From a bacterium (GTDB taxonomy: Bacteria; Bacillota; Clostridia; Lachnospirales; Lachnospiraceae): a stretch of 44,544 nt of DNA. Of the stretch, positions 34,691 to 44,544 are shown in pieces (the stretch's first letter is position 1; each line of letters begins with the position of its first letter). The notes under the pieces were generated by a model. That model did no database searches and was not told where the DNA came from. It saw only the letters and a program-made list of their open reading frames with translations. The position numbers were made by a program, and so were the translations under genes. The stretch covers positions 470,165 to 514,708 of the forward strand of contig JAMPAG010000001.1 of the NCBI GenBank assembly GCA_023667365.1, in the 5' to 3' direction.

Positions 34691-36193
34691 TTACAGCGCC
34701 GCGATAAACCGGTCGAACGCCGCCTGTCCTTCCGCGTCCCGCTTATACACGCCCGCGTGTTCCAGCACCTTGGAAAATACAAGTCCGATCTCATCCTGAA
34801 GGATCTTCATGACATTTGTGTCGTTTATCTCGTCATATTTGGGTAAAAACTCCTCCACCCAGTCCGCATGCTTCTCGATCGCTTCATTCGCGCGAAGATC
34901 TTTTTTATTGACAATCGCGTCAGAAAGCTGCTCCAACTCGGATACCAGACGGGACGGCAGGATCGCAAGTCCCATGACTTCGATCAGACCGATATTTTCT
35001 TTTTTGATGTGATGCAGCTCCGCGTGCGGGTGATAAACGCCAAGCGGATGTTCCTCGGTCGTGATATTGTTGCGCAGAACCAGATCAAGCTCGTAGATCC
35101 CGTCGCGGCACCGTGCGATCGGCGTGATCGTATTATGCGGCTCCCCGTCGGTCTCAGCATAAATAAACACGGATTCATCCGTATAGCCGCGCCAAACCTC
35201 CAGCACGTGGTCGGCAAGCGCGATCAGCCGGTCGCTGTCGGCGCTCTTGATCCGGATCACGGACATCGGCCATTTGACGATCCCCGCCTCGACATCCTCA
35301 AAACCCTTGACGGTAAAGCTGCGCTCGATCGGCGCTTTCGCCATGGCAAAATCATAATTGCCGCCCTGAAAATGATCATGGCTTAAAATAGAACCGCCGA
35401 CGATCGGCAGATCGGCATTGGAGCCGACGATATAATGCGGGAACTGCTTTACAAAATCAAACATCTTGCAGAATGTCGCGTGCTCGATCTTCATCGGCAC
35501 ATGCCGGGAATTAAATACGATACAATGCTCGTTATAATACACATAGGGCGAATACTGAAAGCCCCATCTGCTGCCGTTGATCGTCACGGGAATGATGCGG
35601 TGATTCTGGCGTGCCGGATGATTGACGCGTCCTGCATATCCCTCGTTTTCCACGCAGAGCAGACATTTCGGATACCCGCCCTGCTTCGCGAGCTTCGCCG
35701 CCGCGATCGCTTTCGGGTCTTTCTCCGGTTTGGAGAGATTGATCGTAATATCCAAGTCGCCATATTCGGTCGGCGCAATCCATTTTCTGTCCTTTTGGAT
35801 GCGGTAACGCCGGATATAATCGGAATCCTGACTCAATTTGTAAAAATAATCCGTCGCCGCCTTCGCGCCTTCTTTTTTTAGCGCCTCAAAACGCCGGATG
35901 ACCTCGGACGGTCTCGGCACTAACGCGCCCATCAGTTTGGTGTCAAACAGATCGCGGTAGACAATACTGTTTTCTTTCAGGACGCCGCGCTCATGCGCAT
36001 CATCCAGCAGTTCGTTTAACACCGTCTCCAGCTCGTCCACGGACACCGTGATCTCCCCGTCACAATCATCCAATCCGTCCAGTTCCAATATTTCTAAAAG
36101 ACGATTCGTCGTATAGACCGCGTCCTCCTCCTCAATCAGTCCCGTCTGCAATCCGTATGCGACCAATTTTCTGATGTTTGTTTCCACCGACAT
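34691..36193 (-). CDS. galT: UDP-glucose--hexose-1-phosphate uridylyltransferase, class II
   Basis: This 500-residue Leloir enzyme exchanges UDP between UDP-glucose and galactose-1-phosphate. It is the Firmicutes class II form (GalT2), with KCLLCVENEGYAGRVNHPARQN near residue 185, NEHCIVFNSRHVPM near 230 and the active-site ILSHDHFQGGNY near 280. ATG 36193 follows AAGGGGG; an ATG eight codons earlier lacks a site. It lies 120 nt downstream of galK. No galE or galM is present here. A shortened copy of the leader element lies at 36216-36253. Confidence 0.95.
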   Translation of the reverse strand: MSVETNIRKLVAYGLQTGLIEEEDAVYTTNRLLEILELDGLDDCDGEITVSVDELETVLNELLDDAHERGVLKENSIVYRDLFDTKLMGALVPRPSEVIRRFEALKKEGAKAATDYFYKLSQDSDYIRRYRIQKDRKWIAPTEYGDLDITINLSKPEKDPKAIAAAKLAKQGGYPKCLLCVENEGYAGRVNHPARQNHRIIPVTINGSRWGFQYSPYVYYNEHCIVFNSRHVPMKIEHATFCKMFDFVKQFPHYIVGSNADLPIVGGSILSHDHFQGGNYDFAMAKAPIERSFTVKGFEDVEAGIVKWPMSVIRIKSADSDRLIALADHVLEVWRGYTDESVFIYAETDGEPHNTITPIARCRDGIYELDLVLRNNITTEEHPLGVYHPHAELHHIKKENIGLIEVMGLAILPSRLVSELEQLSDAIVNKKDLRANEAIEKHADWVEEFLPKYDEINDTNVMKILQDEIGLVFSKVLEHAGVYKRDAEGQAAFDRFIAAL

Positions 36194-38810: not shown

Positions 38811-39947
38811 TTACGGTTTCCACTGCGGATTGTCCAGATCTGCCTGCGCCCGCGCAAGATCGTCGCGGATCGAGAGTTTCTGCGGACACGCCTGTTCGCA
38901 CTTCCCACATTTTTTACATGCTTCCGGCTTTTCCTCCGCTTTCATGTCCTCCCAGTTCCAATTGACGGTCCAATAATTCTGGTACATGTGATACGTATTC
39001 CACAGCCTAAAGGTCTTAGGAATGTCCACGCCGAACGGGCACGGCATACAGTAGCGGCATCCCGTACAGCCGTTCTGCACACGCGCATGCAGCGTTTTCA
39101 CCGCCTCACGGATGCACTCCTGCTCTTTTTCAGATAACGGTTCAAAATCGGTAAAGGTATGTAAATTATCCTGCACCTGCTCCTCAGAAGACATGCCGCT
39201 CAAAACGACCTTGACGTTCGGATGGGAACCGACCCAGCGCAGCGCAAACGACGCCGTTGACGCGTCCGGCTTTAACGCCCGATACGTTTGCTCCACCTCC
39301 TCAGGCAGTTTTGCAAGCGAGCCGCCCTTTACCGGCTCCATCACAACAAGCGGCACGCCCAGCTCTTCCGTCAGCGCATAACCGCGGTCGCCCGCCTGTT
39401 CCTCCGTATCCATGTAATTGTATTGGATCTGGCAGAAATCCCATTTCCGATAACGCAGAATTTCTTCAAAACACGCATAGTCGTCATGAAAGGAAAAACC
39501 AAGCTGTCTGATACGCCCCTGCCGTTGAAATTCCTCAAGCACGTCGAGCATTCCGATCCGCTTCACATCCTCCCAGCGATCCTTTCCGAGCGCGTGCAAT
39601 AAATAAAAATCTACATAATCCGTCTGGAGCTTCGCGAGCTGTTCCTCAAAATAGCGCGTCACATCCTCTTTGGTCTTGACGAGCCAGACCGGAAGCTTCG
39701 TCGCCAAATAAAAGGAACTGCGGTCATACTTCTTCATGAGACGCCCGACGACACGCTCGCTCTCGCCGCCATGATAGGGGTACGCCGTATCGTAATAATT
39801 TACGCCCGCCGCCATCGCCGCATCCAGCATGCGCTCCGTTCTCTTTTCGTCGATCTGCCCGTTTTCCAGCGTCGGAAAACGCATACAGCCAAATCCGAGC
39901 AGCGACGTCTCCACCTCCCGATTGTTCCATGTTCTTTTTTCCATCAT
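38811..39947 (-). CDS. Aldo/keto reductase with two C-terminal 4Fe-4S clusters
   Basis: This 378-residue protein has an N-terminal TIM-barrel aldo-keto reductase (about 1-270) with LGFGCMRFPT, YDTAYPYHGGESE (catalytic Asp and Tyr), YLATKLP (Lys) and DFYLLHALG (His). The C-terminal ferredoxin-like part has CTGCRYCMPCPFGVDIP and CKKCGKCEQACP, giving two cluster sites. The substrate is unknown. ATG 39947 follows GAGG at 6-7 nt; an upstream GTG is less likely. It is preceded by a 200-nt leader containing the two-hairpin element. The 96-nt space 38715-38810 carries irregular TTCCGGCTGCGG repeats. Confidence 0.92.
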   Translation of the reverse strand: MMEKRTWNNREVETSLLGFGCMRFPTLENGQIDEKRTERMLDAAMAAGVNYYDTAYPYHGGESERVVGRLMKKYDRSSFYLATKLPVWLVKTKEDVTRYFEEQLAKLQTDYVDFYLLHALGKDRWEDVKRIGMLDVLEEFQRQGRIRQLGFSFHDDYACFEEILRYRKWDFCQIQYNYMDTEEQAGDRGYALTEELGVPLVVMEPVKGGSLAKLPEEVEQTYRALKPDASTASFALRWVGSHPNVKVVLSGMSSEEQVQDNLHTFTDFEPLSEKEQECIREAVKTLHARVQNGCTGCRYCMPCPFGVDIPKTFRLWNTYHMYQNYWTVNWNWEDMKAEEKPEACKKCGKCEQACPQKLSIRDDLARAQADLDNPQWKP

Positions 39948-40035
39948 CAATAACCTCACCTTTCCCGTGACTTGCGAACTTTATGCCGCAGGCGCAAACT
40001 CATGCTTGAAAAATTGGTTTTTCCTACGAATCCTC

Positions 40036-40109
40036 CATGCTGACGCAAGCCTGCGCGTTTAGGCGTCAGCAAAAATCCCGCGATTGAAAAATCTTTGGTT
40101 TTTCAATCT
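40036..40109 (-). repeat. Two-hairpin leader element, copy before the aldo-keto reductase
   Basis: In minus-strand RNA, hairpin A is GATTGAAAAA with TTTTTCAATC (40082-40091 with 40099-40108), then the linker GCGGGATTT, then hairpin B, TGCTGACGC with GCGTCAGCA (40038-40046 with 40063-40071), then CATGGAGGATT. The same order is found at 41683-41755 before degV. Confidence 0.8.
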
Positions 40110-40145
40110 AGTTTCTGTTCTTTTCTTCGTTTTTCTACTGTCTCC

Positions 40146-40174
40146 AGTATAACACAAAGGGATGACCGAGTCAT
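40146..40174 (-). promoter_or_regulatory. Promoter of the aldo-keto reductase, overlapping a terminator
   Basis: ATGACT, 17-nt spacer, TATACT with an extended TG on the minus strand. The -35 lies inside the terminator hairpin and 3' end of the DUF3783 gene. The transcript would carry the whole leader element. Confidence 0.6.
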
Positions 40175-40179
40175 CCCTT
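40157..40179 (-). terminator. Terminator containing the DUF3783 stop codon
   Basis: AAGGGATGAC (40157-40166) pairs with GTCATCCCTT (40170-40179), a 10-bp stem with a 3-nt loop, followed on the minus strand by TGTGTT. The TGA stop of the gene lies in the stem. The U-run is poor, so efficiency is uncertain. Confidence 0.6.
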
Positions 40180-40593
40180 CATTTGTTCATATTCTGCTTT
40201 TTCCCGCGCCAGCTCCGCATAAAGGCGCAGGACGTTCCAGCCTTGATTGATCGGCGTCAGCACCGCTTTGTAATCAACTTTGACCGCCCGGCTGCGCATA
40301 AACGAAAGCGCACGGTTAAAATGTTTTTCGCTCACATCGCAGAACAGCATCAGACTCTGCCCCTGCGCGGGATGTCCGGCAGCCGCATCTGACCGGACCG
40401 GCTTGGCTTGTGCTGTCTTTTCGACAAGTGCACCCGACTTGACCAACGCTGTCTTTCCGGCCGCCAGCGCTCCAATCGTTTGATGAAATGCACTTTCCGG
40501 AATTCTCTCACATCTGACCTTCATTGCGGCAAGCATATCGGCAATCACCACAGTCTCCTTGTCCCCAGTCCGAAAAAGAAGAACCTTTTCCAT
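40171..40593 (-). CDS. DUF3783-family protein
   Basis: This 140-residue protein begins MEKVLLFRTGDKETVVIAD and has the DUF3783-like end VDYKAVLTPINQGWNVLRLYAELAREKAEY. The middle (about 60-85) is variable and low-complexity. Function is unknown. ATG 40593 follows AAAGGAGC. The frame is open back to 40731 and includes a 24-bp repeat in phase, but the ribosome site favours the short form. It lies 134 nt downstream of degV. Confidence 0.8.
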   Translation of the reverse strand: MEKVLLFRTGDKETVVIADMLAAMKVRCERIPESAFHQTIGALAAGKTALVKSGALVEKTAQAKPVRSDAAAGHPAQGQSLMLFCDVSEKHFNRALSFMRSRAVKVDYKAVLTPINQGWNVLRLYAELAREKAEYEQMKG

Positions 40594-40662
40594 CCGTGCT
40601 CCTTTCCTCATACAGCAGGTGCCGACGGTTCTGACATGTCTCTCGCACACCGCACCGACTTC

Positions 40663-40710
40663 CTGCACTTGCACCGCTTCAATTTTCTGCACTTGTACCG
40701 CTTCGATTTC
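40663..40710. repeat. 24-bp tandem repeat, two copies plus remnant
   Basis: 40663-40686 and 40687-40710 share CTGCACTTGxACCGCTTC. The unit is eight codons and stays in frame with the DUF3783 gene (IEAVQVQ twice, read on the minus strand), but lies upstream of its likely start. Confidence 0.75.
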
Positions 40711-40727
40711 CCACCTTTGCAAAACGG

Positions 40728-41651
40728 TCACGAAACGCCCGCCGATCCCTTATGCCTGCGCAGCACGCCAAATCCAAGCGGGTACGGTCCCGTATGCACC
40801 CCGATCGTCGCACCGATCTGATAAAGCGGCAGATCTTCTTTTGACACCGCATATCCATTCTCATTCAAAAAAGCAACCGACTCGCTCTGAAATGCCTCCG
40901 CCTCCGCGCGGTCGTAACCGTAACCGATACAAATACTCAGTTCCCTGCTGTCGCGGCAGACTTCTTTCATATATTGCAACAGAAGTTTTCTACAGATTGC
41001 CTTGGATTTCTCCCTGCCGCGGCAGATGCCCGACGGAAAAATCTCGCCCTCTTTCAGAGTGATCAACGGCTTAATGTCAAGCAGCGCACCTGCCATGCCG
41101 GTCAGCTTGCCGATGCGCCCGCCATGCTGTAAATAGCGCAGATTCCCGACCGTGAAAAAAATACGCCCGCTGCCCTGAATCCCCGCAAGCTGTTTCACGG
41201 TCTGCTCCGCCGTATAGCCCGCTTCGCGCATGCTGACCGCTTCCAGCACATAGATTCCCTGCAATACCGTATCGACCGCGGAGTCGATCACATGAATCTC
41301 CGCCTGCGGATACGTTTCCGCTACCATCGCCCGCGCGACCGTCGCCGACTGGTACGACGCGCTGAATTTGGAAGTGATGCAAATGCAGACAACCGGCATT
41401 CCCGCCTTCGCATAACGCTCAAACACATCCGCATAATCCTGTACGGACGGCATGGAGGACTTCGGAAACTTCTTCGGATTTTGCACCATCAGCTCATAAA
41501 AATCCCGTATCGAAATGTCAACGCCCTCTTTCATGGATTCCGTATCATTCATAGAAACATAAAACGGTACTACCTCTATCTGCTTCTCCGCCGTCAATTC
41601 TGCCGGCAGATCGCAGGAACTGTCACTCACGATCTGAAACTTCTGCTCCAT
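40728..41651 (-). CDS. DegV-family fatty acid-binding protein
   Basis: This 307-residue protein shows the DegV family signatures: SDSSCDLPAEL at the start, VCICITSKFSASYQSA near residue 90, IDSAVDTVLQG near 122, GNLRYLQHGGRIGKL near 170 and GATIGVHTGPYPLG near the C-terminus. Family members (FakB type) bind fatty acids and present them to the kinase FakA for use in phospholipids; no fakA is present here. ATG 41651 follows AAAGGA at 10 nt. The two-hairpin leader element ends about 32 nt upstream. Confidence 0.92.
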   Translation of the reverse strand: MEQKFQIVSDSSCDLPAELTAEKQIEVVPFYVSMNDTESMKEGVDISIRDFYELMVQNPKKFPKSSMPSVQDYADVFERYAKAGMPVVCICITSKFSASYQSATVARAMVAETYPQAEIHVIDSAVDTVLQGIYVLEAVSMREAGYTAEQTVKQLAGIQGSGRIFFTVGNLRYLQHGGRIGKLTGMAGALLDIKPLITLKEGEIFPSGICRGREKSKAICRKLLLQYMKEVCRDSRELSICIGYGYDRAEAEAFQSESVAFLNENGYAVSKEDLPLYQIGATIGVHTGPYPLGFGVLRRHKGSAGVS

Positions 41652-41682
41652 ATGCTCATTTTCCTTTGCTAAACTAATCACC

Positions 41683-41755
41683 CATGCTGACGCAAGCCTT
41701 TGAGTCTGGCGCCAGCACAAATCCTATGATTGAAAATTTTTCGCTTTTTCAATCT
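41683..41755 (-). repeat. Two-hairpin leader element, copy before degV
   Basis: In minus-strand RNA, hairpin A is GATTGAAAA with TTTTCAATC (41728-41736 with 41746-41754), then AGGATTTG, then hairpin B, TGCTGGCGC with GCGTCAGCA (41685-41693 with 41709-41717). The one stem difference from the other copy keeps a G-U pair on this strand but would be an A-C mismatch on the plus strand. Confidence 0.8.
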
Positions 41756-42105
41756 GCCCACTCATAAGCGCTTGTCCCATGAAGAACACCCGCCGCCCGT
41801 CATAGGGAGCCGGCTTCTTTTTTCGTTATTGCTCATGTGACAAGTAGTTTTTGTTACTATATTATGTGTTTTTCAATATCGCCATATCTTATATGATAGC
41901 GCATTGAAAGAAAAAAGCAATCGTTTTTTGAGGAATTTTTCTGTTTTTTTGTGTTTTATTTTTGAAAATGAGCGGGTTGTGTGGACCGCGTTTCCCGGAC
42001 GAGCTATGAATGGGATGGTTCGCAGACGGAATTTATGAATGAGATTTCACAGGCAGGATCGCAGATGCGGCGCTAGGGATGGGGTTCATGGATAAGTTCA
42101 CTCCG
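41756..42105. other. Intergenic region without a recognised gene
   Basis: The space between degV and the phosphatase is AT-rich in its middle (41860-41975), where several TATA-like boxes occur but no convincing -35/-10 pair for degV. 42000-42080 holds loose ATGAATGxGAT-like repeats. Open frames here run antisense through the phosphatase gene and are not believable. Confidence 0.5.
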
Positions 42106-42770: not shown

Positions 42771-43970
42771 TCAGCCGTTTGCTACTCGGTGCAGTTCCTC
42801 TTTCGCATCATCAAAATTCATATGCGTATAAGTGTTTAATGTTACACTGATATCTGAATGCCCCATAATGTACTGTAAAGTTTTTGGGTTCATTCCTGAC
42901 TTCGCCATATTAGAGCAAAAGGTATGCCTGCATACATGAGGGGTTACTTTTGGCATCTGGATGCGGTAAATCTTGTTGTACTTTTCAATGATATGCTCCA
43001 GATATTTTTCCCAGTGAAGAGCAACCTTTGGCATATCATTCTTGTCCAGGCACAAAAACCGGATATAACCATCCACCATAGGCTCAATTTTTGGCGTTTC
43101 CCGATTGGCAATGATTCTGCGAAAACAAACTGCTACTTCTTCTGTCATGGGAACATAGCGGACACCGCTTTCCGTTTTCGGCTCCTGGATCACATATTTC
43201 ATCTGTGATGTACGCTGTAACTGATGGTCTACCTTGATACGCATTTCCTCAAACTCAATATCAGGTATTGTCAGTCCGCAAAATTCCGAAATACGAAGTC
43301 CCGTATGAAAAAGAATATAGATCGCGTCATAGTATCTGCTGAAATGAGCATCCTCCCTGATAAACTTGAGCAAATCCCGCTCCTGCTTCCGGGTAATCGC
43401 TTCTCTGGTAACGGAATCATTGACAATTACGGATGCCAGTTCAAATCCAAATGGATTTTTGCGGATCAGGTCATCATCTACTGCCATCTGAAATGCCGGT
43501 CGGAGAACGCCACGGATAGAGTGAATGGAACTGTATCCTCTGCCATCCATTTGCTGAAGTTTTATGAGCCATGCCTTTGCATCTGACAGGCGTACCTTAT
43601 CAATGCGCTGCTTTCCAAATGTTTCTTTTTTCAGAACATTGATGACGGTCTTATACCCGGCAGCCGTATTATGACGGACTCCCGTTTTCAGAGACACATA
43701 CTTCTCCACCAGTTCCAGCACCGTATAGTTGCCGCCATTGCTTACGATGTGGTCAAATAAATCCGCCTCAATCTGTTTTTCTTTTTCTCTCAGCGAAAGT
43801 TCCCGCTTCTTGCCTTTCGGCACCCCGTCATTCTTATCCAAACGCCAACTGTAAACATTTTTCTCTTTTCCATCCTCGTCAATATAGCGGAATCGATACC
43901 TCCCATCTGTGCGCTGATATTCGCCCTCACGCAAAATACGATTACGGTTATCCCTTCTTTTCTCACTCAT
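42771..43970 (-). CDS. int: Tn916-family tyrosine integrase
   Basis: This 399-residue recombinase cuts and joins the element's ends. The start MSEKRRDNRNRILREGEYQR closely matches Tn916 Int. An arm-binding domain (about 15-70) is followed by a core-binding domain (about 80-180) and a catalytic domain with R226 (HTGLRISEF), H345 and R348 (HVCRHTF), H371 (MGHSDIS) and nucleophile Y381. All catalytic residues are present, so it should be active. GGAGAG precedes the ATG. A terminator separates it from xis. Confidence 0.95.
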   Translation of the reverse strand: MSEKRRDNRNRILREGEYQRTDGRYRFRYIDEDGKEKNVYSWRLDKNDGVPKGKKRELSLREKEKQIEADLFDHIVSNGGNYTVLELVEKYVSLKTGVRHNTAAGYKTVINVLKKETFGKQRIDKVRLSDAKAWLIKLQQMDGRGYSSIHSIRGVLRPAFQMAVDDDLIRKNPFGFELASVIVNDSVTREAITRKQERDLLKFIREDAHFSRYYDAIYILFHTGLRISEFCGLTIPDIEFEEMRIKVDHQLQRTSQMKYVIQEPKTESGVRYVPMTEEVAVCFRRIIANRETPKIEPMVDGYIRFLCLDKNDMPKVALHWEKYLEHIIEKYNKIYRIQMPKVTPHVCRHTFCSNMAKSGMNPKTLQYIMGHSDISVTLNTYTHMNFDDAKEELHRVANG

Positions 43971-44096: not shown

Positions 44097-44330
44097 TTAT
44101 ACGGCAGTTGCGTGATCCAGATACCGTTCAAATCTCTCACGCTTGATCAAGGCTCTGTTCCCATTCATCACATAGAAATCTTCATTGGGATGTGTGTCAA
44201 TGAGCATTCGCAACTTTCCTTCGCCAATATGGTAATATCCGGCTGCTTCTTCAATGGTCAACGTATATCTGCGCCAGACCGGAATATCGGAATAATTTTT
44301 TCCATCAGAATTCATCTTCTTATTCGCCAT
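44097..44330 (-). CDS. xis: Tn916-type excisionase
   Basis: This 77-residue basic DNA-binding protein steers the integrase toward excision. The segment IPVWRRYTLTIEEAAGYYHIGEGKLRML (residues about 15-42) and MNGNRALIKRERFERYL match Tn916 Xis, a winged-helix excisionase. ATG 44330 has GGAGG about 10 nt upstream. The frame extends further upstream through an inverted-repeat region without similarity. Confidence 0.88.
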   Translation of the reverse strand: MANKKMNSDGKNYSDIPVWRRYTLTIEEAAGYYHIGEGKLRMLIDTHPNEDFYVMNGNRALIKRERFERYLDHATAV

Positions 44331-44544
44331 AGGCAGTTGTCCTCCATAACTATCGTTGTCGCGGCAGTCGCCAAATGGATATGTAAGCATATCCTCTTGG
44401 CTCGTTGCTCGCGCACATGAAATATGCCAGACAGGGGGTGCGGCAACGAAGTCCGGCAACGGGCTTCAAAAGACCTCGCAAGTAATCCTTGTCTGGCAGT
44501 TGGGTTATTTTATACTTTTTCTTTTATTTTTCTGTTGCTTTGGT
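44331..44544. promoter_or_regulatory. Region upstream of xis with inverted repeats
   Basis: GGATATG-TAAG-CATATCC is a 7-bp operator-like palindrome at about 44377-44394. TGCCAGACA (44425-44433) pairs with TGTCTGGCA (44490-44498) across 56 nt. No gene is supported here. It probably holds control signals for xis/int or a structured RNA. Confidence 0.5.

Follow-up and report, generated by a model that had tools for sequence, protein, structure and literature searches.

Small Mobile Repeats and Structured Leaders in Bacteria

Several families of small bacterial repeats resemble in part the element described here. The pneumococcal BOX, RUP, and SPRITE repeats are small, modular, multi-copy, transcribed, and structured, and according to the part of the published survey cited here (PMC3049150) they prefer convergent intergenic regions, where they are over-represented, whereas the present family lies in sense orientation just before start codons and carries what reads as a Shine–Dalgarno (SD) sequence. 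ERIC/IRU, Correia/NEMIS, and CIR are MITEs of 100–200 bp that are mainly intergenic and form structured RNA, CIR having two separate arms and a linker. They are close in these respects to the present element, which is about 80–110 nt long, non-coding, multi-copy, and mostly intergenic, as classical MITEs are. However, most of them carry terminal inverted repeats and target duplications (in the part of PMC2229807 cited here), while the ends of this element (AGATTG/AGTGTG against GGAGGAT, by eye in the consensus of alignment A2) are not inverted copies of each other. REP/REPIN sequences with RAYT and the ends of IS200/IS605 share with it the hairpins near the ends and the single-strand polarity, but no GTAG/GTGG guide of the REP/REPIN kind was noticed by eye at the foot of its hairpins (comparison with the part of PMC6006769 cited here). 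Insertion beside an SD or in place of it is not mentioned in the cited parts of two reviews of bacterial MITEs (PMC2229807, PMC10969869), and no published description of SD-replacing mobile repeats was found in the literature searched.

Among described RNA families, a partial likeness was found to Rfam TD-2 (RF03162, clan CL00124), whose source organism is presumably Treponema denticola. Both have a pair of successive hairpins that are alike in size and order, the alignment covers the whole model, and TD-2 shares a TTAC-like loop with part of the copies. Sub-threshold TD-2 matches (E ≤ 1) occurred in 18 of 20 genomes, and among 14 control genomes in 1. Three genomes are classed as element-poor; G008 had a single match, and G019 and G032 lacked any. 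However, the best match in the 20 genomes reached 41.8 bits against a gathering score of 48.7, and the 41 of 55 matches that fell on known copies all lay opposite to gene sense, with none on the same strand and 14 elsewhere. TD-2 is treated here as a lead to a distant relative and not as membership. The literature search yielded no TD-2 paper, and the main text of PMC2864571 makes no mention of it. At the gathering score, nothing in Rfam matched anywhere in the window, and a search by E-value over 39900–41900 gave only a chance NiCo-AnGGAG match elsewhere.

Element Copies in the Window

The window, the whole stretch of 44,544 nucleotides that was analysed and whose numbering is used throughout, is the end of a 514708-base contig in a 3.29 Mb draft genome. 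An earlier note on this DNA had pointed out two look-alike copies on the minus strand, before an aldo-keto reductase (AKR) gene and degV. Both were recovered where it had placed them by BLAST, model match, and sequence, although each runs about 10 nt further 3' than it had described (40109–40026 and 41755–41673). A BLAST search of the own genome aligned the two copies over 74 nt with 81% identity (E 2.7e-13). The element consists of an A/T-rich 5' hairpin (P1), a second hairpin of about nine pairs (P2), and a pseudoknot pairing (P3) between the P2 loop and the bases just before the SD. Compared with shuffled sequences, the two window copies fold with z scores of −2.8 and −3.5 (−2.4 and −4.1 in a repeat run).

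In the copy of the AKR leader, designated type A, counting from the sequence places P1 at 40108–40082, the P3 strands TGCTGACGC and GCGTCAGCA at 40071–40063 and 40046–40038, and GGAGG at 40036–40032, all on the minus strand. A diverged second copy that the earlier note did not report (40026–39948, minus; type B 3' end GGGAAAGGTGAGGTTATTG; type B relation assigned by eye from L183, L244, L257, and L390) separates this copy from the AKR start codon at 39947. From the sequence, it supplies the predicted RBS of the AKR gene, and its loop CGCCT can pair with AGGTG. The gene itself (38811..39947, minus; gene call and Pfam) encodes an aldo-keto reductase with a 4Fe-4S domain. The full type-A copy of the degV leader has P1 at 41754–41728 and P3 strands at 41717–41709 and 41693–41685 (minus, counted from the sequence), and its 3' end, GGGTGATTAG, lies about 20 nt upstream of the ATG at 41651. 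The gene for the DegV family protein (40728..41651, minus; gene call and Pfam) has an RBS of its own, AAAGGAAAA, downstream of the copy. Both window copies are thus of a "far" kind, with the 3' end not directly before the start codon: in the degV leader the copy precedes the RBS that belongs to the gene, and in the AKR leader it precedes the diverged copy that carries the predicted RBS.

A further segment absent from the earlier note, 36250–36218 (minus; model match of 19.3 bits, E 0.011 for the window), is probably a decayed third copy before galT, whose ATG lies downstream at 36193; it retains the P2 core GGATTTGTGCTGGCGC and the 3' end GGATGATTAG and lacks P1 and P3. Two other observations concern the surroundings of degV. 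A terminator-like hairpin on the plus strand adjoins the degV copy (41760–41830), in a region that is also missing from four congeners, and close to the contig end, integrase-like and excisionase-like ORFs (42771–43970 and 44097–44459, named by eye from their translations) suggest an integrated element next to degV.

Size and Distribution of the Repeat Family

The window copies are members of a repeat family. A sequence-only model (R1), built from 14 own-genome copies after a BLAST search with one copy, gave 42 matches in the own genome and 40, 47, 35, and 20 in four congeners (E ≤ 0.01); outside the genus it gave 26 matches in G028, a genome of another genus, and one weak match each in 3 of the other 55 genomes. 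A second model (R2), built from 49 copies and incorporating P1 and P2, matched at E ≤ 1e-4 in 30 of 397 sampled genomes of the family and 28 of 334 genera, with at least five matches in 15 of the 30 positive genomes (11 candidates scored per genome). A class-wide scan found matches in 3 of 391 genomes, one of them outside the family (a single copy in G551, possibly contamination). Among 80 named degV-bearing loci (921 kb), R2 matched once (L112), and these loci linked no named species to the repeat family beyond the congener MAGs. The earlier note had proposed a search for further copies; these were found in the own genome, the congeners, and other Lachnospiraceae, and they covary. Copies 98–99% identical occur at unrelated sites, indicating recent spread in some genomes, and the 20 proteins encoded downstream of copies in the own genome have unrelated Pfams.

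Alignment A2 holds 49 of 56 listed copies, a list that excludes copies with an extra hairpin, and alignment A4 holds 61 matches (59 distinct), nine of which are P1-only matches on the opposite strand. In several tallies orthologous copies are counted more than once, L231 and L232 are one locus on two contigs and are both counted, and about a dozen copies entered the counts without reading by eye. Copies with only a left end were considered as possible ends of an autonomous element; the nine loci proved to be copies of type B or minimal, truncated, or hairpin-only ones, and none showed a long insert between element ends.

Other sequences accompany the family. A distinct palindrome of 20 nt (AAAACGAACTTGTTCGTTTT or AAAGCGAACAAGTTCGCTTT) forms a nested module within copies at L010, L013, L016, L181, L184, L209, L218, and L239, placed in the P1–P2 interval or in that from P2 to the 3' strand of P3, and partly doubled once (L218). 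In larger variants (L461, L464, L444–L446) the stretch from P2 to the SD includes at least one additional hairpin. Genes of the same genus are also preceded by a different recurring leader-like sequence, GTGAGAAGAATTTCTAA..GCTCACAGCAGAGGCTGTTTCGC, found before the L184 gene in both G000 and G002 (L329, L316) and at L328 (G004) and L030. Positions 2441–2715 of L208 (minus) match a T-box leader with 67.2 bits against a gathering score of 93 (E about 1e-12).

Empty Sites and Mode of Insertion

Four close MAGs (L035–L038) conserve the degV and AKR genes and the promoter and terminator regions that flank them, but lack both window elements. Since the orthologous sites are empty in 4/4 congeners, the window copies are lineage-specific insertions and not a conserved riboswitch. 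At the degV site about 150 bases are extra relative to the congeners, and the element is the 3' part of them. Together with the near-identical copies at unrelated sites, this supports the suggestion of a mobile short repeat, one of the options that the earlier note had offered. Comparison of the 5' ends of 17 genes, each with a copy in one congener, across five genomes (the own genome and four congeners) gave an empty site readable by eye in 13 genes (L169, L170, L175, L179, L180, L184, L189, L190, L191, L202, L205, L208, and L217) and not readable in four (L176, L186, L211, and L219). In 10 of the 13 the copy lies between the SD and the start codon, as illustrated by the empty gtaggaggat|tttATG in G002 and the filled cggggaggat[AGTGTG...AATGGAGGAT]tttATG in G001; in the other three (L170, L184, L205) it lies further upstream. 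At the rpoB leader (L273, L191, L242), G001 and G003 each carry a copy, G004 carries a variant that consists of P2 only, with an extended stem, and G000 and G002 carry none.

The preferred reading, to which a probability of about 70% is assigned, is that of a non-autonomous mobile repeat that enters leaders in gene sense, mostly 3' of the SD, replaces this SD, and gives the transcript a structured pseudoknot leader. Its route of transposition may resemble a single-strand one, as the hairpins at the ends, the flank motif like the 3' end, and the target sites suggest: no consistent sign of a target-site duplication was seen at the empty sites, although the copies in G418 look self-matched. In a within-genome swap test for such a duplication, 323 of 1000 swaps did as well, with a noisy right-end pattern that took the start codon as the right end in several rows. 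The same traits could point to a derivative of IS200/IS605-type elements, mobilised in single-stranded form by a Y1 (HUH) transposase, with a fold that serves transposition and only incidental effects on mRNA. The hairpin near each end (P1, P2), the SD-like 5' flank motif that resembles the last bases of the element (GGAGGAT), and the lack of a consistent duplication all agree with the published mechanism, which shows the same pattern in the part of PMC6006769 cited here. However, a search for Y1 transposases (PF01797 only) detected none in three of the four congeners (G001–G003). Of 13 element-rich genomes from other genera, 10 likewise gave no match, including one assembled as a single contig. 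A resident Y1 transposase was consequently rejected as the general mobiliser, being undetected in most element-rich genomes and with no element copies found in 29 Y1 loci, which sets the family apart from REP/REPIN and IS200/IS605 and leaves such a derivative rather unlikely. We know of no counterpart of P3 in IS200/IS605-type elements.

Orientation and Replacement of the Shine–Dalgarno Sequence

Placement was assessed in 130 copies (30 from the own genome, 91 from congeners, 8 from G028, and 1 from G012). A start codon on the same strand, opening an ORF of at least 60 codons, lies within 120 nt of 114 of them, and in 80 of the 130 a sense start codon lies at most 15 nt from the 3' end, compared with 8 of 130 in a mirror control. 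For the copies of other genera (15 genomes, 14 genera), the corresponding figures are 36/40 and 0/40. Pairing between the anti-SD and the 14 nt that precede the element averages −7.3 kcal/mol, against −2.8 kcal/mol further upstream (117 copies, p about 1e-15); values of −6 kcal/mol or lower were reached by 68% of these 117 copies compared with 10% further upstream, and by 90% of 40 other-genus copies. In the own genome the flank is SD-like in 25% of 12 copies (p 0.06, not significant), where the old SDs may have decayed. From its sequence, the 5' flank of the element is predicted to be the old SD of the gene.

The element would in turn provide a new one. The right end fitted the expected pattern in 104 of the 130 copies (77 of the 130 had a clear left end), of which 58 lie at most 12 nt from the start and 46 further from a recognised start codon. 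GGAGG followed by six nucleotides and the start codon was found in 31 of the 58 near copies, and GGATG or GGACG at the key place occurred in 0/58 near copies and 19/46 far copies. This difference indicates that the 3' end serves as an SD in copies directly before a start codon and drifts in the far copies. GGAGGAT, suitably spaced from the start codon, becomes the predicted new SD of the gene.

In the preferred reading, the element enters 5' leaders and the spaces between operon genes in gene sense, most frequently immediately 3' of the SD; GGAGGAT then takes over as SD and keeps the gene translatable, as comparison of the sequences shows. Insertion blind to strand and SD, with selection leaving only the sense copies that re-create an SD, has in its favour the less SD-like flanks in the own genome (G000), the 3/13 readable sites that are not at an SD, and some copies that lie far from starts. 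However, under such insertion, sites 50–300 nt upstream or between convergent genes should be strand-neutral, in contrast with the mirror control above, and pneumococcal repeats, by contrast, do accumulate between convergent genes (in the cited part of PMC3049150); it is regarded as improbable.

Covariation and the Proposed Pseudoknot Leader

The fold covaries across the family, P1 and P2 strongly and P3 moderately, as judged from the alignments. In the 49 copies, 46 cells are changed on both sides compared with 19 ± 3 after shuffling, and 83.6% of positions are paired compared with at most 51% when the structure is slid; P2, in its better register, pairs in 387/441 compared with 369 ± 3, and P3 in 304/441 compared with 290 ± 4. 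In A4, with 59 distinct rows from many genera, both-sided cells number 166 against 68 ± 6 in shuffles. This alignment was fitted to P1 and P2, with P3 outside the model, and P3 alone has 31 cells against 17.6 ± 2.9 and a score above all shuffles. P3 alone fails two of five measures, pairs with change (145/500) and pair types (319/500), and its swap test across genera is not significant, since 12% of swaps did equally well. The sequences of the loop and of P3 differ widely between copies. Individual cases of P3 are persuasive, with the pairs CTGACGC/GCGTCAG in the own genome, CTGCCGC/GCGGCAG in G028, CTGTCGC/GCGACAG in G155, and CTTGC/GCAAG in G224, and P3 is kept with compensating changes (GTCAGAG/CTCTGAC, TCGGAGC/GCTCCGG) across an inserted hairpin of about 60 or more bases.

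The earlier note had given the order of parts as a GATTGAAAA stem, a GGATTT linker, a TGCTGRCGC stem, and CATGG. This order is correct, but GGATTT is not a free linker: across the family it belongs to the 5' arm of the P2 hairpin, which overlaps the second stem of that note, and this second stem is P3. The note had also taken a G-U pair, which is present in the second copy, as a sign of RNA function on the transcribed strand. This argument fails in the 49 copies, where a sense-strand excess of G-U was sought and not found (G-U and A-C cells number 12 and 8 in P1, 16 and 19 in P3, and 13 and 31 in P2). Wobble counts thus do not favour the sense strand, and P2 and P3 appear to fit a structure of RNA or of single-stranded DNA alike. 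A role at the RNA level, as the note had proposed, is favoured in part, by the tie of orientation to the gene and by the covarying fold; neither of the outcomes it had named as contrary to its view, copies that ignore gene orientation and a fold that does not covary, was found.

For the mobile repeat, the transcript would carry P1 as a 5' hairpin, followed by a pseudoknot of P2 with the loop pairing P3 directly before the new SD, and we infer that opening and closing of P3 beside the SD would probably alter mRNA stability and translation initiation. A true class of cis-regulatory RNA, riboswitch-like or protein-bound, that controls a regulon and was spread by selection for its signal would account for a covarying pseudoknot beside the SD, a strict sense orientation, and the retention of copies at one and the same gene, such as rpoB or the L186 gene, in several species, but it is very improbable, since the downstream genes are unrelated and share no pathway, orthologues in sister species mostly lack the element, copies 98–99% identical lie at unrelated sites, no Rfam family matches the window at the gathering score, and loop and P3 sequences vary widely. 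The common signal considered in the earlier note, read as a metabolite signal, is not supported, on the first two of these grounds.

Implications for Lachnospiraceae

The genes seem to tolerate the insertion and may gain a folded RNA leader. It is proposed tentatively, at somewhat less than even odds, that a widespread mobile family of Lachnospiraceae targets the SD and rebuilds it at its own 3' end, so that an RBS would be swapped for a portable, pseudoknot-gated one with the gene left unbroken, core genes such as rpoB and infB included, and that TD-2 may be a distant relative on the other strand. The strand and nature of this Rfam family are worth re-checking, and structured, covarying, gene-oriented leaders that emerge from comparative RNA searches can be mobile repeats, which calls for caution. 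If the proposal is true, the family would be a mobile element with a safe-harbour rule absent from the literature found, in that it goes to the RBS and replaces it. It would also account for 5' leaders of core genes that are specific to particular lineages of a major gut family and would offer a natural route to the rewiring of translation gene by gene.
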